A DNA stretch of 64,000 nt from Gammaproteobacteria bacterium (GCA_013151645.1 JAADHU010000005.1:1-64000), one strand, 5' to 3'; numbered from the stretch's first letter, positions 43,847 through 59,144 are shown. The notes: a model not told the origin generated them from the letters alone. A program made the numbers and translations.

Positions 43847-44536
43847 TCAGGACCCGACCGAAAACCGGTAGCCTGCGCCGCGTACCGTCTGGATATAGGT
43901 ATCGGCCCCGTGACGTTCCAGTGCTTTGCGCAGGCGCCGAACGTGAACGTCGACCGTGCGCTCTTCAACGTAAACATTGGCGCCCCAGACTCTGTCGAGT
44001 AACTGAGTTCGACTGTAGACACGACCCGCATGTGTCATCAGGTGCTTCAACAACCGGTACTCGGTCGGCCCCAACTTAACATTGTCGCCGTTTGCGATAA
44101 CCCGGTGGCCCGCCGTATCCAGTTCAAGACATCCGGCCGATACGGTATCGCCGCCAGCGGCTCGGGAGCGACGCAAGACGGCCTGGATTCTTGCGATAAG
44201 CTCGCGTGGCGCGAACGGCTTGGTCACATAGTCATCCGCGCCACCCTCGAGGCCGGATATCTTGTCTTGCTCTCCCGTTCGCGCCGTCAGCATGATAATG
44301 GCCAGATCTTCGTTTTCCTTGTCCCGCTTCAGCATGCGAGTAAGTTCCAGACCACTCATATCCGGCAACATCCAGTCGATCAGCGCAAGATCGGGACGCT
44401 CATCCGCGAGCAACTGCCGCGCCTCCCTGCAATCTGCCGCCTCCAGCGTCTTGAAGCCGGCACGATCCAGATGGAACGCGATCATCTCCCGGATGGGCGT
44501 TTCGTCTTCGACGATGAGAATCTTGCTTGCGGTCAT
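43847..44536 (-). CDS. phoB: Phosphate regulon response regulator PhoB, 229 aa
   Basis: OmpR-family activator of phosphate-starvation genes. The receiver has the acidic pair in ILIVEDE, phosphorylated Asp in ALIDWMLPDMSG, Thr in IIMLTAR and Lys in YVTKPFAPREL. The C-terminal winged helix reads GPTEYRLLKHLMTHAGRVYSRTQLLDRVWG and ERTVDVHVRRLRKALERHGADTYIQTVRGAGYRF. The start at 44536 is the canonical one. A Pho box about 80 bp upstream suggests autoregulation. Confidence 0.97.
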   Translation of the reverse strand: MTASKILIVEDETPIREMIAFHLDRAGFKTLEAADCREARQLLADERPDLALIDWMLPDMSGLELTRMLKRDKENEDLAIIMLTARTGEQDKISGLEGGADDYVTKPFAPRELIARIQAVLRRSRAAGGDTVSAGCLELDTAGHRVIANGDNVKLGPTEYRLLKHLMTHAGRVYSRTQLLDRVWGANVYVEERTVDVHVRRLRKALERHGADTYIQTVRGAGYRFSVGS

Positions 44537-44614
44537 CACCCTTTGCCTCTGGTCGGGCGCGATCAACACTCGGTCCGCACCGGAGCGTCATTTGCTGGAA
44601 TTACAGCAGCCCTA

Positions 44615-44632
44615 TATTACAGTTCTGTTACG
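44615..44632 (-). promoter_or_regulatory. Pho box upstream of phoB
   Basis: Minus strand CGTAACA-GAAC-TGTAATA: two 7-bp half sites with 4 bp between them, same geometry as the site before pstS and closer to consensus in its second half site. Confidence 0.7.
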
Positions 44633-44671
44633 ACCGAACGGACTATTGGCCGATCCGCTCCGCTGCAACCG

Positions 44672-45367
44672 CTAAATTTTTATCGGCTCGGGTTTGACTG
44701 CCACGTGCATGCGCACGTATTCAGGTACGACCTCATGCGGAGATATCGCACCGTCCGCATGCCAGCCACGCAAGCCCAGCTCGAGTAAAAAACGGGCATT
44801 CGGGTAACAAATATCCACCAGCCCCTGGCGAGCTCGCGCATGGCCCTCAAGCAGTTCGGGATACCGTTGCCAACCTGCGCCTGCGACCAATAGGCTGCGC
44901 TCATCGATAAGGCTATCCAGACTCGCCGTTACCTTGTGCAAGCGGACTTTTCCTTCAGCCACGGGTAAACCCTCCTCATCGCGCACAAAGGATTCGAGGT
45001 AGACCTCATTCATACGGGCATCCTGTGCGATCAACGCACGCGAATCTTCGTGTGTTGCGAAGGCTTCTGCGGCAATGGCCGCCAGCGACGACACGGGTAC
45101 GATCTTGAGACCTGCGCCAAAGGCCATGCCCTGGGCGACGGAGGCGGCAATACGCATACCGATGAACGAGCCAGGGCCGTTGCCAAGAACAATGCAGTCC
45201 AGGTCAGTGAGTTCCATGTGGGCAGCTCGCAAAATCGCCTCAATCATCGGTATAAGAATCGCCGTATGCTCGCGCGGTTTGACGACATGGGAGACCTCGA
45301 TTGTTTCACTCGTCTGCAATGCGACCGAGCAAGCATTGGATGACGTGTCCAGCGCCAGCAAGTTCAC
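44672..45367 (-). CDS. tsaB: tRNA threonylcarbamoyladenosine biosynthesis protein TsaB, 231 aa
   Basis: Partner of TsaD in t6A37 modification of ANN-decoding tRNAs. The ASKHA fold begins LLALDTSSNACSVALQ. HTAILIPMIEAIL and LGNGPGSFIGMRIAASVAQGMAFG are family signatures. The GTG at 45367 overlaps the stop of the upstream helicase gene as GTGA; the longer frame from 45520 lies wholly in that gene. The end VPEYVRMHVAVKPEP is normal. Confidence 0.94.
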   Translation of the reverse strand: MNLLALDTSSNACSVALQTSETIEVSHVVKPREHTAILIPMIEAILRAAHMELTDLDCIVLGNGPGSFIGMRIAASVAQGMAFGAGLKIVPVSSLAAIAAEAFATHEDSRALIAQDARMNEVYLESFVRDEEGLPVAEGKVRLHKVTASLDSLIDERSLLVAGAGWQRYPELLEGHARARQGLVDICYPNARFLLELGLRGWHADGAISPHEVVPEYVRMHVAVKPEPIKI

Positions 45368-47304
45368 CCGACCCGTTCCCTGCTCTCGTGTTGCTCCTCT
45401 GCGGCCTGGTGTGCCTGGAGAAATGTTTTGACAGTATCCGGCGATGCGGTACTTTTCATTGGCTTCAGGCAATTGAGAAACAAACGGCCGTAACTTTTGT
45501 TGCTGATGCGCGGATCGCACAGAACGATCACGCCAAAATCCGCCTGATCGCGCAACAGCCGGCCAGCACCCTGCTTCAGCGACAGTGCCGCCAGTGGCAG
45601 CTGGTGCTCGGTGAATCCATTGCCGCCCTGTCGGCGAACGAACTCAAGTCGTGCCATCATTAAAGGATCGGCGGGTGAAGCAAACGGCAACTTGTCGATG
45701 GCCACAATCGTGAGCGCCGGGCCGCGCACATCAACGCCTTCCCAAAAACTTCCGGTACCCAGCAAGACGGCATTTCCGTGCTCACGAAATTTTCGCAGCA
45801 AGTCGTCACGGGGAGAATCGCCCTGAATCAGTAACGGCCGGCCACGTAAAAGTTTGCGCCGGCCTTTGAACCATTTTCGCGCCGCATTGAGCGCGCGGTG
45901 ACTCGTAAACAGACAAAACACGCCGCCGTTTGTCATACGGGTAAGCGGCATCACCGCTTCCAGCATCCTGGCGGTATGCTCAGGGTCGGCCGGCGCTGGC
46001 AGATCGGCGGGCAGATAAATCAAGCCGTTGTCTTCCAACGCAAATGGGCTGGGAAAAGTGATGCCGGTGACGTCCGGCAATCCCATGCGTTCAGTAAAAT
46101 GACTGAAATCGTCGCCGACCGCGAGTGTCGCGGAGGTAAATATCCAGGCCTGGTCCCCAACGTTAAAAAGTCCGTGCAGGGTCCCGGCGACGTCGAGCGG
46201 TGTCAGATGCAGCCGAAGACTGCGCGGATTCACGTCCAGCCAACGCAAACCGTCCCAGGAATCCTCGCTCACCAGGTGAGCAAGACGCTCGCCGGCTACG
46301 CCCAGCTGCTGATGTAACTTATCGATTTCGGCAGACACCTCGACGAACCCGCCAATGGCCTCTTGCAGCGGCTGAAGTGCGGCTCGCAGTTCGCTGATCG
46401 GCGCCGATATATCATCGAAGACGGTGGCCATTTCGTGGCGACCTTCCTTGCGCGGTGCACTGGCACAAAGCTGGCGCAGCGCAGTCTGCGCCCGGTCGAG
46501 GCGCCGCTGTAACTCCGGCTGATTCATGGGCAAGGTGGCCGCACGTAATTCAGTGAACAGACGTTCGAGTTCACGACTGCCGAGACTAATACCGAAAAAC
46601 TGTGCCGCCAGATCCGGAATCTGGTGAGCCTCATCCAGTATGATCGCCTCGGCCCCGGGCAGGAATTCGACGAAACCGTTCTCTTTCATGGCCAGATCGG
46701 CAAGCAGCAAATGGTGATTGACGACCACGAGATCGGCCTCTTGCGCTGCCCGGCGCGCACGCACGACGTGACACTCTTTATATTCAGGGCATTTCTGTCC
46801 CAGACAGTTGTCGGCGGTCGATGTCACCAGGGGCCAGATAGTGGAATCTTCCGCGACCTCGGTTAACTCAGCGCGATCGCCACTGCCAGTCCGGTACCGC
46901 CACTGGTGCACCGCCTTCAAATCATCGGCAAGACCGGCGTCCTGAACAGTCGTCGCCTCAAGCCGCTGGACACAAAGATAATTGGCACGCCCCTTTAGAA
47001 GGGCCGTCGTAATCGGGCGCCCCACGGCTTTCGCCAGCAAGGGCAGATCGCGATGATACAACTGGTCCTGCAGCGCCTTGGTACCGGTCGAAATGATGGT
47101 CTTCTTGCCGCTCATCATCGCCGGCAGCAAATAAGCAAAGGTTTTGCCGGTACCCGTACCGGCCTCGACCACCAGGTGCTGGTGACCACTAATCGCCTCG
47201 GCCACGGCTTCGGCCATCCACGCCTGTCCGGCACGCGGCTGAAACCCGGGCAATAGATCAATCAACGGACTCGACGGCCCAAAAAATTCGGTCAGAGATT
47301 GCAC
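45364..47304 (-). CDS. YoaA/DinG-type ATP-dependent DNA helicase with iron-sulfur cluster, 646 aa
   Basis: XPD-like superfamily 2 helicase. Motif I is VEAGTGTGKTFAYLLPAM, motif II is DEAH. Four cysteines bracketing an Fe-S site lie at ANYLCVQRL and at NCLGQKCPEYKECH, and motif VI is QGAGRLLRDQADFG. The length and tandem arrangement with tsaB match YoaA, which associates with HolC during replication-fork repair, rather than nuclease-fused DinG. It starts with GTG. Upstream lies palindrome copy B. Confidence 0.92.
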   Translation of the reverse strand: MQSLTEFFGPSSPLIDLLPGFQPRAGQAWMAEAVAEAISGHQHLVVEAGTGTGKTFAYLLPAMMSGKKTIISTGTKALQDQLYHRDLPLLAKAVGRPITTALLKGRANYLCVQRLEATTVQDAGLADDLKAVHQWRYRTGSGDRAELTEVAEDSTIWPLVTSTADNCLGQKCPEYKECHVVRARRAAQEADLVVVNHHLLLADLAMKENGFVEFLPGAEAIILDEAHQIPDLAAQFFGISLGSRELERLFTELRAATLPMNQPELQRRLDRAQTALRQLCASAPRKEGRHEMATVFDDISAPISELRAALQPLQEAIGGFVEVSAEIDKLHQQLGVAGERLAHLVSEDSWDGLRWLDVNPRSLRLHLTPLDVAGTLHGLFNVGDQAWIFTSATLAVGDDFSHFTERMGLPDVTGITFPSPFALEDNGLIYLPADLPAPADPEHTARMLEAVMPLTRMTNGGVFCLFTSHRALNAARKWFKGRRKLLRGRPLLIQGDSPRDDLLRKFREHGNAVLLGTGSFWEGVDVRGPALTIVAIDKLPFASPADPLMMARLEFVRRQGGNGFTEHQLPLAALSLKQGAGRLLRDQADFGVIVLCDPRISNKSYGRLFLNCLKPMKSTASPDTVKTFLQAHQAAEEQHESRERVG

Positions 47305-47549: not shown

Positions 47550-50500
47550 CTACCGCCCGGCTATCCGCTTCAATGTAGCCTGGTCAGCCTTGATCGACAC
47601 CCGGAAGTAAGGCCCCTGCGCCGTGTAGCGAGCCGCGGCAAAATCGTCATCGTAAAAACCATTGACGTTGTAGCCCAGCGTAATCCACACGTTGTCGCGA
47701 ACGTTAAGTCCCAGATCGATACCCACGCCGTAGTCGACGACATTGGACGCATAGGAATGATACGCACTGGCATGAATGCCAGCTTCCCACTTTTGTGCAA
47801 AGCCTTTGCTGAAATCGAGACCGGTGAGGTCGGTATAGCCGGTAACATCGGTGGCGCCGAATTCGCTGCGGACGTATTTGAAGGCATATTGCAGCGCGAT
47901 CTGAGTGGTGGCACTAATCCGTTTGTTGGTATTGAGATTATTGATCAAACGCCAGCTACGTCGCTGACTGAGGACGGAGGAAGCATTTTCGTAGATCAGG
48001 TCGACACGATCGAGGACAGACCACGAGCTTGCCGCCGGTCGAAACGCCCACCCCATACGAGCATTGACGGTCAGCGAATCGGAAGCGTCACTCAGCTTAC
48101 TGCGATAGACCGTCAATCCGGCAGACATGCCGTGACCGAGACTCGGCTCTCGATACCAGCCGGAAATCAGTGACGTGCGCGTCTCATTGTCGGAATCGCG
48201 GAACTCAATGCGACTGTTCACGCTCCAGAACTCTGACTGATAAAGAGTACCGAGAAATGCAGCCGTAAAATCATCTCGTTGGGAACCGAAAGTCAGCTCG
48301 CGTTCGTCGTCAAATCGCCGCAAACCCGGATCGGCCAGGGTTCGCGTTCGATCCAGTCCAACATCGACACTCCAGGATTCATTGACCTGAAAACCCTGAA
48401 TAATGCCCAGATTGGCAAACAATCTTGGCCCGAATTCGCTGCTCTCATTGACGAACGAACTGTTTATTTGTGCACGACTCCAGGGAGAAGCGCGCACACC
48501 GACACGAGTCATTTGAGTCTTGAGATCAGTACCTTGCGCATTTTCCAGCTCGAAGAACATATTGACGTCGGTCAATACTTCATAGTCGAAACCGAGCACG
48601 TAGCTGGAAAGATAATCCGAATTTTCCGTTACATTGTTGATTCCGAGACTGCCGTTCGCACGAATTTTCAGAGCACTGTTAAACAATCGACGACTAACAC
48701 CGCCTTGAACTACATTGCTTGTGCGGGAAACGCCGTCGGTAAAGTCATCTTGTGCGTGCACCAGGCCGAGGGACGCCGAGGATCGATCACCCTGATATCG
48801 GAGGTCGGCCTCCGCGGCAAGTCTCTCCGCGCCGGTCTGCAGATTTTTCTGCTGGGTAGCCCGGGCGTTCAGAGAGACTTCAGACGAAAAGTTATACCGG
48901 CCGTCAAGTCCGAACTTGCGGATCCCCCGTTCGGCGGCGGACTGTTGTTCGAGACCGAACGCCTGATCGACCTCTTTGTACTGGGCTCTCAAATCGAGCT
49001 TGTCGCTACGGTGCTCGACGCTCAGCATCTGCGCGCGACCATCGCTTGCGATACCACCGGCTTCACGGTTGCTTTGTGCGACTTCGGCTCTGACCAGTGT
49101 CTCCTCGTTTGCCCGCCAACGCAGATCGACACCGGTCAGGTCGCCCTCAGCGCCCTGTTGACCTTCGTTTATGTAGGTTAAACCGACCTCGATCGTTTTC
49201 TCACTGTCTCGTACCGCCACTCTCCCGCCGGCCACGATATCGCTGCTGGCGCCCGACGAAGTCTCGTATTCGGCGACGATATAGAGGAGGTTAAACTCGT
49301 TGTCGCGGCTTGGGACAGGTTTCTTGAAATAGAGTGTGCCGTTGAACGGATCGAGATTGTAGTCGAGAAAACGGCTCAACGTCGTGCTGGACAGGACAAC
49401 CGCTGTATCGAAGCGATCTCGAACCTCAATGCGAATGGTCTCGCTATTGCCGATGATAGGAGCACTGCTAAGGCGGTACAACCCGGACGTACCGTCGCCT
49501 TGCAATTCGTCGCGCACAAACGACTGCTCGGTCTCGCTCGCAAAGGCGGAAAGCAGCAGGTTCTGGCCATGATATTCGGTCTTGAAACCGTTAAAGCGAC
49601 GTTCGTAGCGACTGAGTTCAGTCGTGGACAAGGCCGTGCTGTAGTCCCCGAACAGGGCAACAAACTGATTGCGTTCAAGCTTCACATACAGTTTTCGCTG
49701 ACTGGGCGCCTCGAATCGTTGCTCTGAATTATCCGCATAAAGCGTGTAGTACGCATTTGGGTTGATCTCCGTCTGGAATTGACGTCTGGCGTCGTTTCTA
49801 TCGCGAGCGGAATCGTAAGCCAGTGTGAGCAGGTACTCTCCCTTGATCCTTCCTTTCGCGAAAAACGCCAACCGTCCATCGTCGTAATAGCCGCTATTCT
49901 CTCCCGCCTGGGTCGCGGCAAGCGTATTCTTCTTTAGCGTGTTGTAGCCGACCGTACCCTCACCAAAGCCGACCAGAATCCAGTCTCGCGGCTCTGGCTT
50001 GAGCCAGGTCGTCAGCTCCTGTTCGCGCTGCTGATCGAATTTCAGTCGCAGCGTCGCCATGCCGCTGGTGGTCGTTGGCTCAAGTTCAATGAGGGCGATG
50101 CCATCGCGTCCGACCGTGTAAAGCGGTTCGCGATTGCCAATATTCACGATCTTGTTCTTGCGATCGTTCTCGACCGACCACCAGGAACGATACGGTTGAT
50201 CGACTGCAAAAGCGCCGACGCTGGAGTGTCGCGCCGGCTGTCCGAAACGATCGTACAGGCGTACGGCAATAACCGGTCGTGTCCTGCCATCGGCAACGAG
50301 CAGCGACGATTCTCCCAGCAGTTCGCCGCGAACCGGCGCGCCTGCATAGTGGACCGTGCGCAGGAGTCGATCGGCGACCCGCCCGTCGGCACCGATGATG
50401 TCGGCGACCAGTTGATTGGCTCCGGTCAGCAAATCAACGCCGACCCAACGACTGACGGCAACGTTACGCGATGTATTGACTTCCGTGCCATCGAAATTCA

Positions 50501-53500
50501 ACGGGTTGACTTCGAGGCCGTTAATAAAAAGCGCGACGGACTGGTCCAGTCCGTGTTTGATGGAGATTTTCAGCGCCGGTATGGCCGGTCGGAATTCAGC
50601 AGCAGGCAGCACCCAGCCGATGCCCGGCGCGTGCGAATTGATATGCGGCTCCAGTTGTTTGGGTGCCGTCAGGTGATCCGCGAGTGCCTGCTCGTTGAGC
50701 ATTTGCTGCGTTGCTTCTGCAATGCTCGGCGGCAAGCCGCGGGTTTTCGTGATCAGTGTGCCGCTTGATGCCTGTTCAACGCGAAGAAATGATTGTTTGC
50801 CCGGACGCCTGCCAGTGAGCGCCATCTCGACACGGCGATTTTCCTGCCGCCCATTGACCGTGTCATTGCTGGCCACGGGCTCATCGGGACCGCGACCCAG
50901 GACCTGTACGTTTCCTTGCGCTACGTTTAGCGCTTGCGCAACATAGCGGGCGGCCGCCAGAGCGCGTGCTTCTGACAGCACGTAGTTGTCCGCGAACCTG
51001 TGCCGATTCCTGACCGCAATTCCCGTGCTGTCACTGTGGCCCAACGCCGAAATCCGAATATCCTGTACACCGGACCATTCTTGTATCAGCGAATCAAGTG
51101 CCTCCCGATCGACGACTGACAGCTGGTCGGATAACACGCCGAATTGCAGATTGAGCACATAGTCCTCATTTTCGAATGTCGCCGCTTCACGGCGAATCAG
51201 TGTTTCTGCAATGGGTGTTTGTTCGTCGTCTTTAGCCGGCGAATTGAAACGGGCGAGTGCGCGGGTCCGAAGTTCTCCGGATACATCGGCAACAATAACG
51301 CCGCCAAAACGGATGACTTTGCGCCAGTCACCACTCTGGTCTGGCAATGGCAGTGTTAGTGACTGACCGGCAATGCGGGGAACCGGCGCGGTTTCGCCAT
51401 CGAGCGACATCGACCCGGGAACGTAGCTGATGCCATCCGGCAGCAATACCATCACGCTGAGGTCGGTTACGGTGATGCTACCGGTTCCGTCCAGCTTGAG
51501 TTCGTAATGTACTTCGTCACTATTGGCGGAACCGGTATTCATTAGTTCGATATCGATTTTGCCATCCGGCGCAAGTTTACGACGTAGATAGAAATCGGCA
51601 CGTTGCAAACTACCGCGCGACAGGTCGACGAACTGCGAATCACCTCGACCGGCAAATCGTCCCTGGTCAGTACAGCCGACCACCTCGAAATAGTCCGGGA
51701 TCGTTGCTGTATCCAGTTGGGCAATGTGACCGCCTGGACGCAATCCTTCGAAATGGAATCGACCGCCCGCATCCGTGACAGCATAGCGTCCGTCCTCGAG
51801 GTAAACGCGCACATTCGCGACACCGCGGTCTTCCTCAAAGCTCGTCAACGCACAACTTCCATCAACGACGCGCCCGATCAGGGTACTGCTCGAACGGAAA
51901 AGGTCTTCGGCCAGGCGGATTCGCGCCTCGGAAGCGTTCGACACAACCCCGCCGTCGGCGAGCGCGATTGCTGTATTGACAAGTTCGTCATTCTTCACCC
52001 CGGCCACGATTTCGACGACGTAGGCAACCACCGACCGTTGACCGCCGGCGAGGTTTCCAGTTGTAAATACAAGCTCCATGGTCGCTGCATCGATGTCCGG
52101 ATCCATCAACGCAACACCGTCCAGCGTCGCAGAACCGGGCACGTAACGTACACCGGGCGGCAATTGGTCTATGAGCTGCACGGCCTGTGCCGTATCGGTC
52201 GTCGATGTATTCTCGACCACCAGTTCGTAACGGACGAAGTCGCCGGGTGCCGCTACCGTTGTCGTCGTCGACTTGCGCAAGAACAGCGAAGATGCGGCGG
52301 GATCAACCGGGTAGTCGAAACTGAAAGGACCGCCACCCGCGAATGTGAATGAATTGCCGAACGACTCCGGGCCGAGGTTGTATGGCGCATTCGGCAACAG
52401 TTGCAGATCGGCCGCTGCGACACTCGAGGGCGAAGAGTAGGCGTCAGGTGGCGTTACATCGATTCGGTAGTCACCCGCTGGTACGGACGGAAAACGGTAT
52501 TGACCGTTAGCGAATGAATAGCTGGTACCCCCGCTATCTACCGTGACTTCGCCGGTTACAATTGTCGAGGGGAAAATGCTTACACCGTCATTGCCGTAGA
52601 CGGTTGCGGGCAAGCCGCTCGACGTATCCGTAATCTGTACACTCGCACCGTCGATCAATGCACCGCTGCGTGAATCGAATACGACACTGACAGGATCCAG
52701 AATCGCCAGCGCCTCGGCGGAATCGGCAGCATCGGCTGGGTCCGTATAGCGCACGCGTACGCTGGAATCCATACCGCCCTGCACGACGCAATCGCCAAGC
52801 GATACCGGTGCGTTCGCGCTCGGCACATAACCGGCGAAAATACCGGAGTCGATGCCGGTTTCTGTGAGTCGGATTGTTTCTGTGTCACCACTGGAAGGGT
52901 GGCTGACGATCACCGTGGCGGTATCGCGAATTGTGGCGTCCACGTTCTGATCGAAGTCGTCAAGTCGCAGCATAAACGGCTCACCGAGGTTGTAGCTCGA
53001 TGTCACGCTGACATCCTGCGTTAATGCAGGATCGATCGTCAGTCCGCCACTGATTGTAGGGTCCGCAATATCGATGAAAGCTCCCGACTGCAAGCAGGCG
53101 GCGGGCCCCACGCTTTCCTGTAACGTTCCGGCTGCGACGACCCGGGTGAAGGCCAACGATGCCGGAGACCGGATGACCGCCGTTACCAGTTGTACCTCAT
53201 TGCTTGTGACCTGTGTCGGAAGTCCGGCCGCATTTTCATAGGCGACGAACGCCTGATTGGAAATGATGGTCCCCGGGGGTGCTGCAAGTGCCGGTACGGT
53301 CAGTAAAAAGGCAGCAAACGACAGCCAGATCAGGCGACCTTTCGGCCGTTTGTGAATACGCTGAATGCACCTCGGGGGGAACTTGCGTTCCCCCCGAGGG
53401 CTAGCTTGTAGCAGGCCGTGGAGCCTGTCTCCCGGAGGAGAAATACCGGTCGCAAGGGGGCCGGGGCTCCCCAAACGGGCAGCCCAGAACCGGCATTGCC

Positions 53501-53519
53501 TGAACAAACTATTGAGCAC
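47550..53519 (-). CDS. Giant exported protein: DUF11/Ig-like modules, OmpA domain and C-terminal outer-membrane barrel, up to 1989 aa
   Basis: Residue numbers from 53519. Signal-like helix RLIWLSFAAFLLTVPALA (62-79). First module (82-260) resembles the three upstream proteins (GTIISNQAFVAYEN). Carboxypeptidase-regulatory/SdrD-like modules lie at 275-360 and 545-645 (GVANVRVYLEDGRYAVTDAGG), DUF11 repeats at about 408-535 and 640-760 (PPGVRYVPGSATLDG; PDGISYVPGSMSLDG). The OmpA peptidoglycan-binding domain is at 790-903 (ISALGHSDSTG, LSEARALAAARYV, NRRVEM). Ig-like strands follow to about 1175. The last 800 residues have the alternating aromatic pattern of a beta barrel and end FRVSIKADQATLKRIAGR. 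The 53519 start is a GTG without a ribosome site, 14 bp after the upstream gene; the true start is unsettled. Likely an outer-membrane protein anchored to murein. Function unknown. Confidence 0.85.
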   Translation of the reverse strand: MLNSLFRQCRFWAARLGSPGPLATGISPPGDRLHGLLQASPRGERKFPPRCIQRIHKRPKGRLIWLSFAAFLLTVPALAAPPGTIISNQAFVAYENAAGLPTQVTSNEVQLVTAVIRSPASLAFTRVVAAGTLQESVGPAACLQSGAFIDIADPTISGGLTIDPALTQDVSVTSSYNLGEPFMLRLDDFDQNVDATIRDTATVIVSHPSSGDTETIRLTETGIDSGIFAGYVPSANAPVSLGDCVVQGGMDSSVRVRYTDPADAADSAEALAILDPVSVVFDSRSGALIDGASVQITDTSSGLPATVYGNDGVSIFPSTIVTGEVTVDSGGTSYSFANGQYRFPSVPAGDYRIDVTPPDAYSSPSSVAAADLQLLPNAPYNLGPESFGNSFTFAGGGPFSFDYPVDPAASSLFLRKSTTTTVAAPGDFVRYELVVENTSTTDTAQAVQLIDQLPPGVRYVPGSATLDGVALMDPDIDAATMELVFTTGNLAGGQRSVVAYVVEIVAGVKNDELVNTAIALADGGVVSNASEARIRLAEDLFRSSSTLIGRVVDGSCALTSFEEDRGVANVRVYLEDGRYAVTDAGGRFHFEGLRPGGHIAQLDTATIPDYFEVVGCTDQGRFAGRGDSQFVDLSRGSLQRADFYLRRKLAPDGKIDIELMNTGSANSDEVHYELKLDGTGSITVTDLSVMVLLPDGISYVPGSMSLDGETAPVPRIAGQSLTLPLPDQSGDWRKVIRFGGVIVADVSGELRTRALARFNSPAKDDEQTPIAETLIRREAATFENEDYVLNLQFGVLSDQLSVVDREALDSLIQEWSGVQDIRISALGHSDSTGIAVRNRHRFADNYVLSEARALAAARYVAQALNVAQGNVQVLGRGPDEPVASNDTVNGRQENRRVEMALTGRRPGKQSFLRVEQASSGTLITKTRGLPPSIAEATQQMLNEQALADHLTAPKQLEPHINSHAPGIGWVLPAAEFRPAIPALKISIKHGLDQSVALFINGLEVNPLNFDGTEVNTSRNVAVSRWVGVDLLTGANQLVADIIGADGRVADRLLRTVHYAGAPVRGELLGESSLLVADGRTRPVIAVRLYDRFGQPARHSSVGAFAVDQPYRSWWSVENDRKNKIVNIGNREPLYTVGRDGIALIELEPTTTSGMATLRLKFDQQREQELTTWLKPEPRDWILVGFGEGTVGYNTLKKNTLAATQAGENSGYYDDGRLAFFAKGRIKGEYLLTLAYDSARDRNDARRQFQTEINPNAYYTLYADNSEQRFEAPSQRKLYVKLERNQFVALFGDYSTALSTTELSRYERRFNGFKTEYHGQNLLLSAFASETEQSFVRDELQGDGTSGLYRLSSAPIIGNSETIRIEVRDRFDTAVVLSSTTLSRFLDYNLDPFNGTLYFKKPVPSRDNEFNLLYIVAEYETSSGASSDIVAGGRVAVRDSEKTIEVGLTYINEGQQGAEGDLTGVDLRWRANEETLVRAEVAQSNREAGGIASDGRAQMLSVEHRSDKLDLRAQYKEVDQAFGLEQQSAAERGIRKFGLDGRYNFSSEVSLNARATQQKNLQTGAERLAAEADLRYQGDRSSASLGLVHAQDDFTDGVSRTSNVVQGGVSRRLFNSALKIRANGSLGINNVTENSDYLSSYVLGFDYEVLTDVNMFFELENAQGTDLKTQMTRVGVRASPWSRAQINSSFVNESSEFGPRLFANLGIIQGFQVNESWSVDVGLDRTRTLADPGLRRFDDERELTFGSQRDDFTAAFLGTLYQSEFWSVNSRIEFRDSDNETRTSLISGWYREPSLGHGMSAGLTVYRSKLSDASDSLTVNARMGWAFRPAASSWSVLDRVDLIYENASSVLSQRRSWRLINNLNTNKRISATTQIALQYAFKYVRSEFGATDVTGYTDLTGLDFSKGFAQKWEAGIHASAYHSYASNVVDYGVGIDLGLNVRDNVWITLGYNVNGFYDDDFAAARYTAQGPYFRVSIKADQATLKRIAGR
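53340..53519 (-). other. Hairpin-rich stretch at the 5' end of the giant gene
   Basis: Between the upstream stop (53534) and the signal-peptide codons lie successive hairpins on the minus strand: GGGCT...AGCCC, TCTCC-tcc-GGGAGA, CAGGC-tccacg-GCCTG, and a perfect 13-bp stem with a 4-base loop at 53370-53399 (CCTCGGGGGGAAC / GTTCCCCCCGAGG). The region is open in the frame but, read as protein, has no family character, so it may be an untranslated structured leader or a processed N-terminus. I do not match it to a known riboswitch. Confidence 0.6.
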
Positions 53520-53533
53520 CGTAACGGAGTGGT

Positions 53534-54682
53534 TTAGTTAATGGTCACTCTGAAACTTATTACCGCAGGGTTATCTGTCCCTGTGGTACCTACCGTCAGG
53601 CCAGGATCAATAGTGATCGTTGCGCCAGCTGTACCACAACCGTCGCCATCACCATCTCCCGCATCCAGACTGCAAGTGCTTACGGTCGTACCCGCACCCA
53701 GATCGATCCTGGCATCCTGCCCCGGGGCACCGTAGCCGCCCAGAACGAGTGTCAGGTCACTGCTCAGCACATCTGCAATACGAACCTGATCAGCATTGAC
53801 CGCGCCGGTATTCTCGACGGTAATTTCGAACTCCACCGTCGCACCCGGAATCGCTTTCGGATTGACGCCGAGATTGAACGGATCGCTGATAACCGACGAT
53901 GATTTGGTGATCGTGAGTGCAGCTGATGACACTTGATAGCCGTCCGCGGACACTTCAAGGCCGTCACCGATACTACCGGCGCCATCATCGGCAAACACAA
54001 CCTCGACCGTGGTTGTGCTATCGACCGAAGCCGCGTCATCCGTCGTAAGCGCACCCAGCGCGGTGGCAACACCGGCGTCGTGGGTTGTTGCCGTTACTTC
54101 GATGTTACCAACATCCGCATTGACCAAAGCGACGTTTGCGTCGACAACGACAAAGACGAGAGTGGATGCGTCTGCCAGTAGTTCATCGACAAATATTAGA
54201 TCGGCGGGAGTCCAGGTGGCACTGCCATCGGTATCCGCAAAGACACGCAGGTTGCTCATGTCCACCGTATCGGTATTTCCGTTTACCGCACCGCCAACCA
54301 GATTGACCACCGCGAGGTTATAGTCTTGCGGCGAGTTACCTGTGTTGGTCAACTCGAATGTCGTAACGGCGTCCGGCTGTCCAGGATTGACTTGCGTCGC
54401 ACCAATCAGACCGAATTCAACCAGTGTGAAGTCAACTCGGTTGTCGACCAAGAATGTCGTCGCCAACGCACCACTGGCGAGGCCCGGCGCGCTGTTACCA
54501 TTCGGATCGGATAAAATGGGCTCTTGCGTATTGCCACCCACAGCATAATCCACCTGTGCCTGATTGGAGATCGACACACCGGCGTCGGTGCCGACGGCGA
54601 AAGCCTGCTGCGAGAAAAACAGCACAAGCACGATTGAACTCAGCCGCGCAAAGCGACCAAAGCCTGTTATTAAACGTTTCAT
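53534..54682 (-). CDS. Exported DUF11-type protein, 382 aa
   Basis: Signal peptide MKRLITGFGRFARLSSIVLVLFFSQQAFA, cut before VGTDAG. The opening GVSISNQAQVDYAVGG parallels the first module of its two larger neighbours. The C-terminal half contains a clear DUF11 repeat (GATVEFEITVENTGAVNADQVRIADVLSSDLTL). The whole chain is rich in Asp, Thr, Val and Gly and nearly free of Cys apart from two near the end (CSLDAGDGDGDGCG), an aspartate-rich loop that could bind calcium. ATG 54682 has AAGGAG at seven bases. It lacks a barrel or sorting signal, so it is probably secreted or periplasmic. Function unknown. Confidence 0.85.
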   Translation of the reverse strand: MKRLITGFGRFARLSSIVLVLFFSQQAFAVGTDAGVSISNQAQVDYAVGGNTQEPILSDPNGNSAPGLASGALATTFLVDNRVDFTLVEFGLIGATQVNPGQPDAVTTFELTNTGNSPQDYNLAVVNLVGGAVNGNTDTVDMSNLRVFADTDGSATWTPADLIFVDELLADASTLVFVVVDANVALVNADVGNIEVTATTHDAGVATALGALTTDDAASVDSTTTVEVVFADDGAGSIGDGLEVSADGYQVSSAALTITKSSSVISDPFNLGVNPKAIPGATVEFEITVENTGAVNADQVRIADVLSSDLTLVLGGYGAPGQDARIDLGAGTTVSTCSLDAGDGDGDGCGTAGATITIDPGLTVGTTGTDNPAVISFRVTIN

Positions 54683-54819
54683 TACGGTACTCCTTGCTTC
54701 ATTGCAAAAAAGATATTCGCCGGCATTCATTGCCGGACAGGGGCTCTGAGCACCTGCAGCCTTCCCTGCACCAGACTGCAGCTATCCCCCGTCCGGGGGA
54801 TCGCCGATTTCAAAATCTG
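54683..54819 (-). promoter_or_regulatory. Structured intercistronic leader with competing stems
   Basis: Minus strand: a hairpin ATCCCCC-ggac-GGGGGAT (around 54784-54801), then CTGCAG...CTGCAG, then CCGGCA-atgaa-TGCCGG near the gene. The bases 54787-54796 could instead pair with 54733-54743 (CCGGAC-GGGG against CCCCTGTCCGG, one bulge), which would open the first and third hairpins. This is the layout of a switchable leader, but no ligand class is recognised. Confidence 0.45.
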
Positions 54820-55308
54820 CTAGTCGAGTCGCGCTCGAAATTGCGACATACCCTGCGATCCGGCCGGAATTTCACCGACCATCACCCAGCGGATGTGCGT
54901 AAAGTCCTTGACGGTTGCCGATCGCGGCACGCCCGTATCGTTCACTGTCAACTCACCCGCTTTGGCAAAGGTCTTGCCGCCATCCACCGAAAACACGATC
55001 TCGGCACCTGGGCCGAAAGCCGAACCGTCTACGTAGGTCAGTTGTTCCGGCAACGGATTGGTGATGACGACGTTCTCAGCTGGCTGGTCACCGATATTGG
55101 CGAATGTCACGGTATAGATGACTTCGTCACCGGGAACGACTTTCGCCGCCTCCACCAGCTGCGTGCTGCGTTTGCCCGCTTCATCAATCGTGACTTCCTC
55201 TTTTTGCACTGTCGTAGTGACATTGAGGTGCCCGCTGGTCTGTGCACCGGCATTGCCGGCACTGGCCAGGACGAGAAAGAATATTCCTGCTTGCATTACA
55301 TTTTTCAT
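54820..55308 (-). CDS. Small exported DUF11-domain protein, 162 aa
   Basis: Signal MKNVMQAGIFFLVLASAGNAGA, cut before QTSG. The remainder is essentially one DUF11 domain: VVPGDEVIYTVTFANIGDQPAENVVITNPLPEQLTYVDGSAFGPG, followed by VFSVDGGKTFAKAGELTV and TVKDFTHIRWVMVGEIPAGSQGMSQFRARL. The ATG at 55308 follows AAGGGGG. It is the second gene of the DUF11 operon, 32 bp after the first. Such single-domain proteins could be the subunit of a surface layer or a partner of the giant protein; this is inference. Confidence 0.85.
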   Translation of the reverse strand: MKNVMQAGIFFLVLASAGNAGAQTSGHLNVTTTVQKEEVTIDEAGKRSTQLVEAAKVVPGDEVIYTVTFANIGDQPAENVVITNPLPEQLTYVDGSAFGPGAEIVFSVDGGKTFAKAGELTVNDTGVPRSATVKDFTHIRWVMVGEIPAGSQGMSQFRARLD

Positions 55309-55340
55309 TACGGCCCCCTTATGGCTGTAAGTTGGTTTGC

Positions 55341-56366
55341 TCAATCGATCGTGACTTGGAAAGACACCGTCTGGACGCCGTCCGCCTGAGTTAGATCACC
55401 CAGGCGAATAACAACCGTCGGCACACCACTGACATCGAGTTCACCCGAATCGGCATCGGTCGCGTCCGTCAGTCCGCCGCCATTCAGTGAAATGCTTGCT
55501 GTCACGTAGCTGGTGTTCGTTGGTACCGGGTCGGTGAAGACACTCCCCACCGCAGTGCCGGTATTGGTCACCTCGACGGTGACTGTGTAGGTAAGCGTGG
55601 CGCCGGGTACCGATTCAGTACCTCCGAATGGATCCGCGACGGCAACGGTTTTGACAATATTGATGACGACGTCACCAATCACATACGCACCCGTGTTAGC
55701 CGCGCTACCACCGGTGGTACCAATAACGGCATCAACTCCACCGTCGCCCTGGTTCGCGAATACATCTCCCGGCGCACCGGTACCGCTTACCGATGTCGCG
55801 GCAAGTTCACTACGCCCGATATCGCCATTGACCGCAGACGCAGGAATCCCGTTCACCAGCAGGATGCCTATCGACTCATCCGCCGCGAGCTGTGGATCAT
55901 TCGTTCCCGGCGTATAGGCAACATCGCCAAGACTAAAGTCGCCACTGGCATCGGAATCGAAATAGATTGCCGGCACCGATGGCACAGGATCGAAATCGTC
56001 GCCACCCAGGTTACTGTCCAGCGCCAATCGAAATACCTCGTTGCCATTGCCGGTATTGCTGACCGTGAAAAGCAGGCTTCGATCGACCGCACCCGCATTG
56101 ACGAGAAGTTGCGGGCTCTGCAGCGTCACAACCACGTCAATGCGCTCATCGACTGTGATACTGACGGTATTGGAAATAAGCGTTACATTGGTCCCGCTGA
56201 TATCGAAATCGACCTGCGCCGTATTGTCGATGACAGTGCCGGCGGCTGTGCCGGCGGCCCATGCGGGTTGAACCTGAAACAGAATTGTTGCGCACAACAG
56301 CAACGCTGGCATCCATGCAGGCGGCCGCGCGACAGCGAATCGCTGTTCAAATAGCTCTGATATCAA
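55341..56366 (-). CDS. Exported DUF11-type protein, 341 aa
   Basis: The TTG at 56366 has AAGGAA about eight bases upstream; an ATG at 56312 is the alternative. The export signal is MPALLLCATILFQVQPAWA. The first module starts GTVIDNTAQVDFDISGTNVTLISNTV, as in the giant protein. A middle domain carries DSDASGDFSLGDVAYTPG, a calcium-loop-like Asp pattern, and a final DUF11 domain has GATLTYTVTVEVTNTGTAVGSVFTDPVPTNTSYV. It is the first gene of the operon; no membrane anchor follows the signal. Confidence 0.85.
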   Translation of the reverse strand: MISELFEQRFAVARPPAWMPALLLCATILFQVQPAWAAGTAAGTVIDNTAQVDFDISGTNVTLISNTVSITVDERIDVVVTLQSPQLLVNAGAVDRSLLFTVSNTGNGNEVFRLALDSNLGGDDFDPVPSVPAIYFDSDASGDFSLGDVAYTPGTNDPQLAADESIGILLVNGIPASAVNGDIGRSELAATSVSGTGAPGDVFANQGDGGVDAVIGTTGGSAANTGAYVIGDVVINIVKTVAVADPFGGTESVPGATLTYTVTVEVTNTGTAVGSVFTDPVPTNTSYVTASISLNGGGLTDATDADSGELDVSGVPTVVIRLGDLTQADGVQTVSFQVTID

Positions 56367-56744: not shown

Positions 56745-59144
56745 CTAGTGTTCGGTATTGCGTTGAATACCCAGTTTCTTCATTTTTGAGCGCAGGGTGC
56801 TTGGCGGGATGCCGAGCTTGGCCGCCGCTCCGCCCGGGCCCGCTATTTGCCATTCGGTTTGCGCCAGGATAGTGGAGATGTGCTCCCTTTCGGCAGAGCG
56901 TAAGTCAAGCGGGCTTTCGACGGTGCCGATGATCGTCGAAACAGGGGCAGGAGAAACCAGCCGTTTCTTGTCGAGCGCTTCAGCAAGACCAAGCACCGGT
57001 CCGCCGGCCGAAATTAATGCCCGTTGAACGATACTTTCGAGTTCACGCACGTTGCCAGGCCACGAGAACGCGTCCAACTGTTCCATCATTATCCCGGATA
57101 CGCCCGTCACTTCCCGGCCCAACGCCGGGGCATGCTTCGCGATGAAGTGTTCAACAAGTATCGGAATATCTTCCTTGCGCTCACGTAGTGGTGGCAACAT
57201 GATAGGAAAAGTATTGATTCGATAAAAAAGATCGGCGCGAAAATCCCCATGGTCGACGGCCTCCTGCAGCATCCTGTTGGTTGCAGCAATAATGCGGACG
57301 TCGACTTGAATCGTTCGACTGCCACCCAACCGCTCGAATTCGCCTTCTTGCAAGACGCGCAACAGCTTGCCCTGCAAATCAATTGGCAAATCACCAATCT
57401 CATCAAGAAACATCGTGCCACCGTCGGCAAGATCAAATCTGCCACGCTTGCGCGAGTCGGCGCCGGTAAACGCACCTTTCTCATGCCCGAACAACTCGCT
57501 TTCAATAAGGTTCGCGGGGAGTGCGGCGCAATTCACTTTCACCAACGCCCGATCGCTTCGATTGCTGCGTTCGTGTACCGCCCTTGCCACCAACTCCTTA
57601 CCCGTACCCGTTTCGCCAAGCACCAGTACCGTCGTGTCAGTTTCCGCCACCTGTGCGACTTGCTGTAAACATTTGATCAGGACTTTACTTTCACCCACCA
57701 GTTCATTGAAACCGTGCGTCGATCGTATCTCCTGGCGAAGATAGACGTTCTCCGCCTGCAGTCGATCTCTGGCCAGGCGCAGCTCATCGAGAGCGTCGTC
57801 CAGCGACTTTTTGACATTCATGCGGTTGACAACGTTCGACAGCAGGCTGGACAGCAACTCGATATCCTTCAACAGCTGTTCAGACCACTGTATCTCTTCG
57901 TGTATCGACGCAAAGCCACAAACACCGACGACGTCACCACCGATGACTACCGGAACTACGGCAATTGACTTCACACCGAGTCTGGTCATAAGCAGCTTGT
58001 CTTTGACGACATCCGGCATGTTTGCGACAACATCGATTGCAACGGTTTCACCTCGCAGAAGTTGTGCAGCCGACCACGAAAAGGCATCAATCGAAAGCTC
58101 GACCCAGGGTGGTCCTCCATGCTCATTCCATGAAAACAGAAGTTCCGCGCGATTGGTCGTACGGTCAAACCAGATCAGACTGACGCGATCAGCCATCGCG
58201 TACCGGCAAGCCAGTTTAAGGCTACCTTGCAGAACCTCACCCAAATGTTCATCCGGCGTCGTGATGAGGCGTGACGATATGTCAGCCACCGTCTGTTGAA
58301 AGCGCGCGCGATCCCGTAGCCCGGATTCCGCCTTACGAGTCGCCAGAATATCTTTCTCCGAGCCCCAGACCCGGAATAGACCGCCGTTCTTGATGACACC
58401 CGTAATGTTCAGAAGCAGCGCTCTTTCTATTCCCTCAGTACTGGTGGAATGGTCCTCACGATCAACCAGCCGATAGCCACCCGCAACGAAGTCGCGAAAC
58501 AACTGTTCATGCGCCTCCGCACCAAATGCCGAATTCATGTGTCGGTAACGCTTGCCAATGATCTGGGCGGGACTGCTCGCACCGACTGCCCTAGCGTACG
58601 CCGAGTTGCATTCGACCAGGACGCCATCGTAGGTTTGGCATGCCTGTTCGTCCAATGGCAGCGTCGTGTCAATCGGTGGCGAGAATTCGAAACAATAGAC
58701 TGAATCCGTATATTGCTCGACCAACGAACGAAACCGGTTCTCCGAGTCGACGATTCTCTCGACGGCCTTTGCTGCATTTTTTTCTGATCGGCGCATCGAC
58801 TGCTCCGACTCGGCAAAGTACCTGGCTGATGCAATCCCGCCGGCCACGATGAGCGCGAATGAAAGCAAGGTAACCGGCACTCGAAGATGCTGCTGCAGGA
58901 ATTCCATCGCAGCATGTGACGCTGCCGGTTCGACGAGTTCGGGCAGAACCGTTAAAACAACCAGGTCCGCGAGATAGTAAAGCGCGGTTGTGACGATACC
59001 GGCGGCGATCAATACCCGACCGGTAAGCGGTACCCGGCCTTTTTGAAAGATACCTTTAGGGATAGACACTGCCAGCAGAACCACCGCAAGCCCGACGATG
59101 ATCAGGTCCACCAGCACCAATGATGAGAATGTACTCCAGATCAT
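56745..59144 (-). CDS. Membrane-anchored PAS-GAF sigma-54-dependent transcriptional activator, 799 aa
   Basis: Three N-terminal hydrophobic helices (about 8-28, 43-66, 89-107), then a PAS domain (135-265), a GAF domain (285-440) and a coiled coil (445-475). The AAA+ domain (480-710) has Walker A GETGTGKE, the sigma-54 contact loop GAFTGA intact at 557-562, Walker [11 protein letters not shown] and an R-finger region ([27 protein letters not shown]). A Fis-type HTH ends the protein ([23 protein letters not shown]). No receiver domain, so it senses through the membrane/PAS/GAF part. It lies upstream of the DUF11 operon on the same strand and divergent from a gene pair with a sigma-54 promoter. 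Confidence 0.93.

Follow-up and report, generated by a model that had tools for sequence, protein, structure and literature searches.

In chaperone-usher pili (FimA/FimD), an N-terminal donor piece completes the incomplete immunoglobulin (Ig)-like domain of a neighbouring subunit, with an outer-membrane barrel at the base, and donor-strand complementation is also known in type V pili. Isopeptide domains have been split as well, by human design, to give DogTag, SpyTag and Jo-In. For DUF11, a domain known as CLIPPER since 2025, an intramolecular Lys-Asn isopeptide bond has been shown (Lys715, Asp748 and Asn806 in structure 9IFR; PMC12617251). In the same work, Lys-Asp-Asn isopeptide domains and an OmpA-like anchoring domain are found in one protein, a fibrillar adhesin of Acinetobacter silvestris (9IFR), and this combination is shared by the largest protein of the locus described here. 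The locus lies in a stretch of 64,000 nucleotides from a gammaproteobacterium (GCA_013151645.1, JAADHU010000005.1:1-64000), hereafter the window, which is contig C5 of a genome of 3.96 Mb whose closest named relatives are metagenome-assembled genomes labelled Proteobacteria or Woeseiaceae. Its four genes encode three small proteins (S1, S2 and S3) and a giant protein. The key finding is that a DUF11 domain appears to be split between neighbouring proteins, a feature absent from an earlier note on this DNA. On balance, we favour a fibre of split isopeptide domains, joined head to tail by probably covalent donor-strand complementation and anchored by the giant protein.

The four open reading frames (ORFs) were identified on the minus strand in the order S1, S2, S3, giant. 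In the lines below, "donor" denotes the N-terminal Asn-bearing hairpin and "acceptor" the truncated C-terminal DUF11:

55341-56366, minus strand: S1, 341 amino acids (aa); signal peptide, N-terminal donor hairpin (Asn48), middle Ig-like region and truncated C-terminal DUF11 acceptor (Lys239, Asp279).
54820-55344, minus strand: S2, 174 aa; signal peptide and one truncated DUF11, without a donor hairpin and without the conserved Lys/Asp.
53534-54730, minus strand: S3, 398 aa; donor hairpin (Asn56), middle region and C-terminal DUF11 acceptor (Lys276, Asp320).
47550-53519, minus strand: giant protein, putative anchor, 1989 aa.

A four-gene DUF11 operon ending in an OmpA-barrel fusion had been proposed in the earlier note; the ORFs were found at the positions given there, in an order conserved across phyla. 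The reading frames of S1 and S2 overlap by 4 bases, and ATG codons at 55308 and 54682 may be alternative starts of S2 and S3, respectively. A Sec-type signal peptide and one DUF11 match were identified in each of S1, S2 and S3. The Pfam cut-off for DUF11 (PF01345; 24.6 bits) is passed by S2 (E 2e-9), S3 (E 2e-5) and the giant protein; S1 scores 15.8 bits with PF01345, under this cut-off, and lies above that of TIGR01451 (NCBIfam). The description of the small proteins as mostly DUF11 modules thus held as far as one match each, but the C-terminal DUF11 is truncated in all three.

Relatives were collected in a one-genome-per-species scan seeded with 6 closer barrels, which returned 396 relatives; the locus analyses cover the best 80 of these 396. 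S1, S2 and S3 stop just ahead of the Asn-bearing last hairpin of their C-terminal DUF11, with the ends "..SFQVTID", "..FRARLD" and "..SFRVTIN", respectively, and the chain end falls one residue past the penultimate strand in 45/46 S1, 46/54 S2 and 39/57 S3 proteins. A broad DUF11 profile of 127 positions, derived from 226 domains in other proteins encoded at the loci, with none from S1-S3 or the giant protein, runs on after this strand ("..LTFTVTVD AGAAPGTLTNTATATSDTGASSNTATATVTV"); the acceptors cover it to position 95 (S1) and 94 (S3). That same Asn-bearing hairpin opens S1, S3 (VGTDAGVSISNQAQVDY) and the giant protein (PPGTIISNQAFVAYENAAGLPTQVTSNEVQLV), directly after their signal peptides, and hhalign placed the N-termini of S1 and the giant protein on the profile from 96-98 to 127. 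With no Asn hairpin following them, the acceptors of S1 and S3 are regarded as split versions of DUF11. The giant protein, which the earlier note had opening with a similar module, in fact opens with the missing piece of one, a complete DUF11 lying further in. The features concerned are as follows:

56142-56255, minus strand: S1 donor hairpin, AGTAAGTVIDNTAQVDFDISGTNVTLISNTVSITV; hhalign to DUF11 positions 96-127 (probability 54, E 1.3e-4); Pfam DUF7619 positions 95-131 of 133 (E 0.11).
55344-55673, minus strand: S1 acceptor DUF11, stopping one residue past the penultimate strand; profile match ends at 94-95 of 127.
54431-54595, minus strand: S3 donor hairpin region; Asn in 57/57 relatives.
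53537-53923, minus strand: S3 acceptor DUF11 without the last hairpin; Lys in 57/57 and Asp in 56/57 relatives.
53175-53282, minus strand: donor hairpin of the giant protein, directly after the signal peptide (Asn88); hhalign to DUF11 positions 98-127 (probability 60, E 8.5e-5).
51885-52307, minus strand: complete internal DUF11 of the giant protein, with Lys416, Asp451 and Asn515 in one chain; PF01345 E 4e-11.

When the DUF11 consensus was compared with 9IFR, the Lys and Asn columns were 91 residues apart, matching the printed numbering, and the Asp column was off by one residue from the printed number. As in S3, the acceptor Lys and Asp are kept in S1 (46/46 relatives for each), and the donor Asn is present in 48/50 giants and 39/46 S1 proteins. 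Since the internal DUF11 of the giant protein keeps Lys, Asp and Asn in 50/50 relatives, its N-terminal Asn is without a partner in cis. In S2, Asn or Ser replaces the Asp in 49/54 relatives, so that a junction with S2 would be non-covalent; no hhalign match to the missing DUF11 end was found at its N-terminus. S1 also matched structures of cell-wall anchoring proteins weakly (E 0.014), which was judged to be due to chance.

Across 191 ORFs with a C-terminal DUF11, many of them S1-S3 relatives and so not mutually independent, 184 end at profile positions 92-96, whereas internal last domains mostly end at 120-127. Joining acceptor and donor sequences in 41 loci raised the score with the broad profile by a median of 8.6 bits for S1 with its own hairpin, 5.7 for S1 with that of S3, and 6.1 each for S1 and S3 with that of the giant protein; the gain was 4-9 bits in nearly all loci, against -0.2 to -0.9 for shuffled or body-segment controls. 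With Pfam models and the sequences of the window, S1 rose from 16.4 to 21.4 bits with the S3 hairpin and to 20.8 with the hairpin of the giant protein, and the DUF7619 score of S2 rose from 23.3 to 36.2 bits with the S1 hairpin. The broad profile is required for this test, as a profile made from the DUF11 of the giant protein alone gave almost no gain and a short hairpin-only profile was too weak for use.

At one locus (L075), S3 and the giant protein lie in one frame, and the stop codons were read as Gly to give a single chain for AlphaFold2. For the resulting model (90 sequences; predicted local distance difference test (pLDDT) 86, predicted template modelling score (pTM) 0.63), the best VIA matches were isopeptide pilins, with BcpA (3kpt) at Z 14.6 over 133 residues at 2.3 A; model residues 227-474 superpose on BcpA 268-410. 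Further down the list, the engineered split Jo-In complex (5mkc) matched residues 226-472. As the S3 acceptor (227-346) and the hairpin of the giant protein (about 441-474) are both within the match, they are predicted to form one domain, the hairpin completing S3 in a fold like that of Gram-positive isopeptide pilins. The hairpin of S3 itself, present in the same modelled chain, did not fill the acceptor.

The best 80 relatives belong to Woeseiaceae, Steroidobacter, Povalibacter, Desulfuromonas and Geobacter types and Nitrospirota. Gene order was counted in the 51 of these loci with at least 3.3 kb of upstream DNA: S2 is present in 51/51 and S1 in 44/51, all three small genes stand in order in 43/51, and S3 was found by script in 49/51 and by eye in the other two (L088, and L109, where S3 is split over two ORFs). 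Intergenic gaps are short, with a median of 22 bases ahead of the giant gene, whose product is about 1990 aa long in relatives. In neighbourhoods of gammaproteobacterial genomes S2, S3 and the giant gene are adjacent, and usually S1 too. With its gene order kept across phyla, the operon is real and not a chance arrangement. Among 276 gammaproteobacterial genomes, a giant protein matching most of the C-terminal 1060 residues occurs in about 23, and S3 in 19, each with a giant (in G228 a distant one, L062). S2 has a full-length match in 26, three of which (G190, G080 and G244) have no giant nearby. The small proteins are hence not widespread without the giant protein to which the earlier note had tied them (0/19 genomes for S3, 3/26 for S2). 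No relative was found on viral contigs.

The giant gene is split into two or more ORFs at L042, L050 and L073, through either decay or assembly errors. At loci of the Steroidobacter/Povalibacter type (L103, L107, L110, L111, L112, L121 and L126), an extra DUF11 protein of 540-1060 aa is encoded immediately upstream of the operon, on the other strand; L107 is from Povalibacter uvarum DSM 26723, an environmental carrier available in culture. Distant relatives (L057, L058, L061, L065, L067 and L072) have a DUF11 megaprotein of 1600-3000 aa and, after it, a distinct barrel protein that in most cases has an OmpA domain; in several of the megaproteins a C(D/C)C-YELIIE...W stretch close to the C-terminal end is conserved. 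Neither donor nor truncated ends are seen in these two-gene relatives, which were treated as a group apart.

Other proteins, encoded near the operon or away from it, end in the same truncated DUF11. Some of these also open with a donor hairpin (for example, at L049, L054, L055 and L062); others, without one, carry a reelin-like repeat, a GEVED-like domain or a proprotein convertase P-domain. The genome of the window encodes one such acceptor-only protein, unlinked to the operon (contig C82, about 76908-78533; L168, 2909-4534). It is 541 aa long, has a signal peptide and a reelin-like repeat, and ends in an S3-like DUF11 without the last hairpin; its acceptor ("VSDPVNGSSNPKAIPGAIMLYTINV") is close to that of S3 ("ISDPFNLGVNPKAIPGATVEFEITV"). 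We propose that the acceptor-only proteins are tip adhesins; a C-terminal DUF11 stopping ahead of its last hairpin could serve as a search criterion for candidates of this kind in any genome.

The giant protein is present as a single copy in its genome. Its donor hairpin is followed by Ig and DUF11 modules, then by the OmpA domain and last by a predicted barrel. Above Pfam cut-offs it contains CarboxypepD_reg (two stretches), DUF11 (residues 414-519) and OmpA (residues 794-895). The two features of its C-terminal part are:

50805-51152, minus strand: OmpA-like peptidoglycan-binding domain; PF00691, 29.6 bits against a cut-off of 27.2.
47592-50063, minus strand: C-terminal region predicted as a beta-barrel (AlphaFold2 model), giant residues 1153-1976, ending in an outer-membrane type beta-signal.

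In a sequence search of solved structures the OmpA part alone was matched; structurally it resembles solved OmpA-like domains over 106-109 residues at 2.1-2.3 A, among them YfiB (VIA Z 15.7, 106 residues at 2.2 A). The AlphaFold2 model of residues 790-1989 (71 sequences; mean pLDDT 80, pTM 0.66) contains the OmpA domain, Ig-like strands and about 30 consecutive strands (model residues 622-1187), or up to 38 with those upstream, residues 1150-1976 or so being predicted as long antiparallel strands. The C-terminus, conserved as "GPYLRFRxKFDQ" in the close family and reading "..GWFLNIVGKY" in distant members, resembles in sequence the ends of outer-membrane barrels (beta-signal type), and this signal is kept throughout the family. 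Foldseek returned Deinococcus SlpA, SprA and LptD at low TM-scores (about 0.2 for SprA and SlpA), and VIA returned the FimD usher with Z 17.2 but a root-mean-square deviation of 9.7 A over 341 residues; these matches are read only as indicating a large outer-membrane barrel. Kinship of the giant protein with ushers or SprA was dropped, the structural matches being of a generic barrel kind; neither family was among its Pfam matches. Taken together, a role as an outer-membrane and peptidoglycan anchor is supported. At window positions 53300-53519, a long N-terminal stretch with a conserved "RGKxxFPP"-like motif (also in the giants of L075, L082 and L086) precedes the signal peptide, and is either an extended signal region or the product of a wrong start codon.

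Upstream of S1, the following gene was identified:

56745-59144, minus strand: sigma-54-dependent regulator (PAS/GAF/AAA+/HTH_8, by Pfam), on the same strand as S1.

Control of the operon by this regulator is possible but unproven. A family of its size occurs in 11/80 relative loci. The DNA upstream of S1 gave no convincing sigma-54 -24/-12 site, the best candidate having 3 mismatches. Beyond the giant gene, at window positions 43847-47304, a DinG-like helicase, a TsaB-like protein and a response regulator are encoded; the helicase recurs in 31/80 relative loci, so that the operon holds a chromosomal place in the group.

In the fibre proposed here, S1 and S3 would be the links, each having a C-terminal DUF11/CLIPPER without its last beta-hairpin and such a hairpin at the N-terminus. 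Either at the surface or in the periplasm, each C-terminal domain would take up the N-terminal hairpin of the neighbouring subunit; the acceptor Lys would then bond to the donor Asn, with the acceptor Asp as catalyst, and the chain would be welded without an enzyme. S2 and the unlinked adhesin-like proteins, being acceptor-only, would cap the far end, and the donor-only giant protein would end the chain at the cell, with its OmpA domain on peptidoglycan and its C-terminal barrel in the outer membrane. The most likely chain order is S2 or an adhesin, then S1, S3 and the giant protein: S2 would join non-covalently, and the S1 donor, its natural partner, is also the donor that loses Asn, both of which point to S2 - S1 - S3 - giant. 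The operon and its conservation, the complementary ends, the invariant residues and the predicted completion of S3 by the giant protein are computational results. Bond formation in vivo, growth to a polymer of some length, exit through the barrel of the giant protein itself, display at the surface and a role in adhesion are what we infer from this scheme. A fuller version is held only tentatively, namely a new class of Gram-negative surface fibre with naturally split isopeptide domains, self-welded covalently without sortase, chaperone or usher, in which the giant protein is at once last link, peptidoglycan anchor and a very large barrel wide enough for exit of the chain. The surface-assembly or adhesion system of the earlier note, with the giant protein as anchor or exporter, is supported by these results as regards one conserved system, the giant protein as an anchor, its interaction with the small proteins and an adhesion-type role.

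Several points weigh against this fibre. The evidence is computational throughout. The S3 donor hairpin was weakly matched by hhalign (probability 5, positions 96-112), the donor Asn is lost in 7/46 S1 proteins, and the Pfam scores of single junctions are modest; with these models S1 scored less with its own hairpin (14.2 bits) than by itself. In the family profile test, S1 with its own hairpin gave the largest gain, which fits self-closure too. The read-through chain places the hairpin of the giant protein after S3 in sequence, favouring the modelled joint. Finally, the OmpA domain lies between the N-terminal modules and the barrel, so that a periplasmic fibre is possible.

This last point bears on the first alternative, in which the same chain is kept in the periplasm as a mechanical strut between the outer membrane, the peptidoglycan layer and further proteins. 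The OmpA domain, necessarily periplasmic, stands between the modules and the barrel, so that the simplest topology leaves the donor end inside. Against such a scaffold, the reelin-like, GEVED-like and P-domain modules of the acceptor-only proteins are of kinds common in extracellular adhesion, the barrel is far bigger than anchoring requires, and DUF11 proteins are known mostly from fibrillar adhesins (PMC12617251). It is considered unlikely, though a serious contender. A second alternative, in which the N-terminal hairpin of S1 or S3 completes its own C-terminal domain to give a ring-closed, perhaps cyclised monomer, with no fibre and the giant protein bound otherwise, appears improbable. Both ends are indeed held in one chain in S1 and S3, the gain of 8.6 bits for S1 fits this closure, and FimA is reported to fold alternatively to a monomer (PMC6615685). 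However, the AlphaFold2 model took the hairpin of the giant protein for S3 over that of S3 itself, with the adjacency caveat given above, and the giant protein is a donor with no free acceptor, while S2 and the adhesin-like proteins are acceptors with no donor; at least these therefore need partners. Export of the small proteins by the giant protein as in two-partner secretion, with no assembly among them, would suit the operon, the outer-membrane barrel of large predicted size and the close dependence on the giant protein, but it leaves unexplained the matching truncated and donor ends and the invariant Lys/Asp in Asn-less domains, no POTRA or autotransporter domain was found by Pfam search, and it is held to be very improbable; the complementary ends make the small proteins look like chain links, and not the cargo that the earlier note had suggested. 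The degrees of confidence given to these readings and to the split-domain fibre overlap in part and do not form a partition.

If the split-domain fibre is borne out, it would place another class of fibre alongside the known pili, assign a function to DUF11 proteins now annotated merely as repeats and provide natural protein-welding pairs. No paper linking DUF11 to OmpA, a barrel, an isopeptide bond, a donor strand or a pilus was found to describe the system in the library searched, from which preprints and subscription journals are largely absent; this is in line with the earlier note, which knew of no described system of this make-up. Type V autotransporters, with their autotransporter domain, and intimin/invasin, with LysM, a barrel and then a C-terminal passenger, are set apart from it: there is no such Pfam match, and here a C-terminal barrel is combined with an OmpA anchor. 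The chains of S1-S3 finish with a beta-strand (FQVTID or FRVTIN, for example) and not with the LPXTG-type sorting signal of sortase-linked pili, and they lack the Cys at the signal peptide end that forms part of the lipobox of type V pili (Bacteroidota), whose strand is released by a protease.

Compared with chaperone-usher pili, with which it would share the donor principle and the barrel at the base, the operon has no chaperone or usher domain, its donor is a hairpin with an Asn, the domain families are unrelated and the bond is possibly covalent; no PapD-like chaperone family was found among the four proteins, the flanking regulator or the helicase. The A. silvestris adhesin is a single chain with complete domains, and truncated acceptors, donor N-termini, partner genes and a C-terminal barrel are not described in the accessible text of PMC12617251. 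Archaeal threads (Saci_0406, PMC9715654) likewise combine donor-strand complementation with an intermolecular isopeptide bond, head to tail; however, they are archaeal, with no DUF11 and no outer-membrane barrel, and their bond runs from Asn57 to the N-terminal Asp24 amine of subunit n+2. The Gram-positive pilins BcpA, SpaD and RrgB share the CnaA-like fold and are the top structural matches of the completed S3 domain as modelled, but their bond lies within one chain and their polymers need sortase. SprA of the type 9 secretion system and Deinococcus SlpA are likewise very large single-chain outer-membrane barrels, with TM-scores of about 0.2 and no sequence match, and no relationship is claimed. 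Split Jo-In and DogTag (PMC5333627, PMC8878318) form their bond in trans from split pilin domains, and are man-made. The strand-exchange principle is shared with known fibres, and the proposed natural trans isopeptide version with a giant anchor fits no known class by its defining machinery. The engineered splits appear to have a natural counterpart, a cut of this kind made repeatedly and at one exact position and used to join separate proteins in Gram-negative bacteria.

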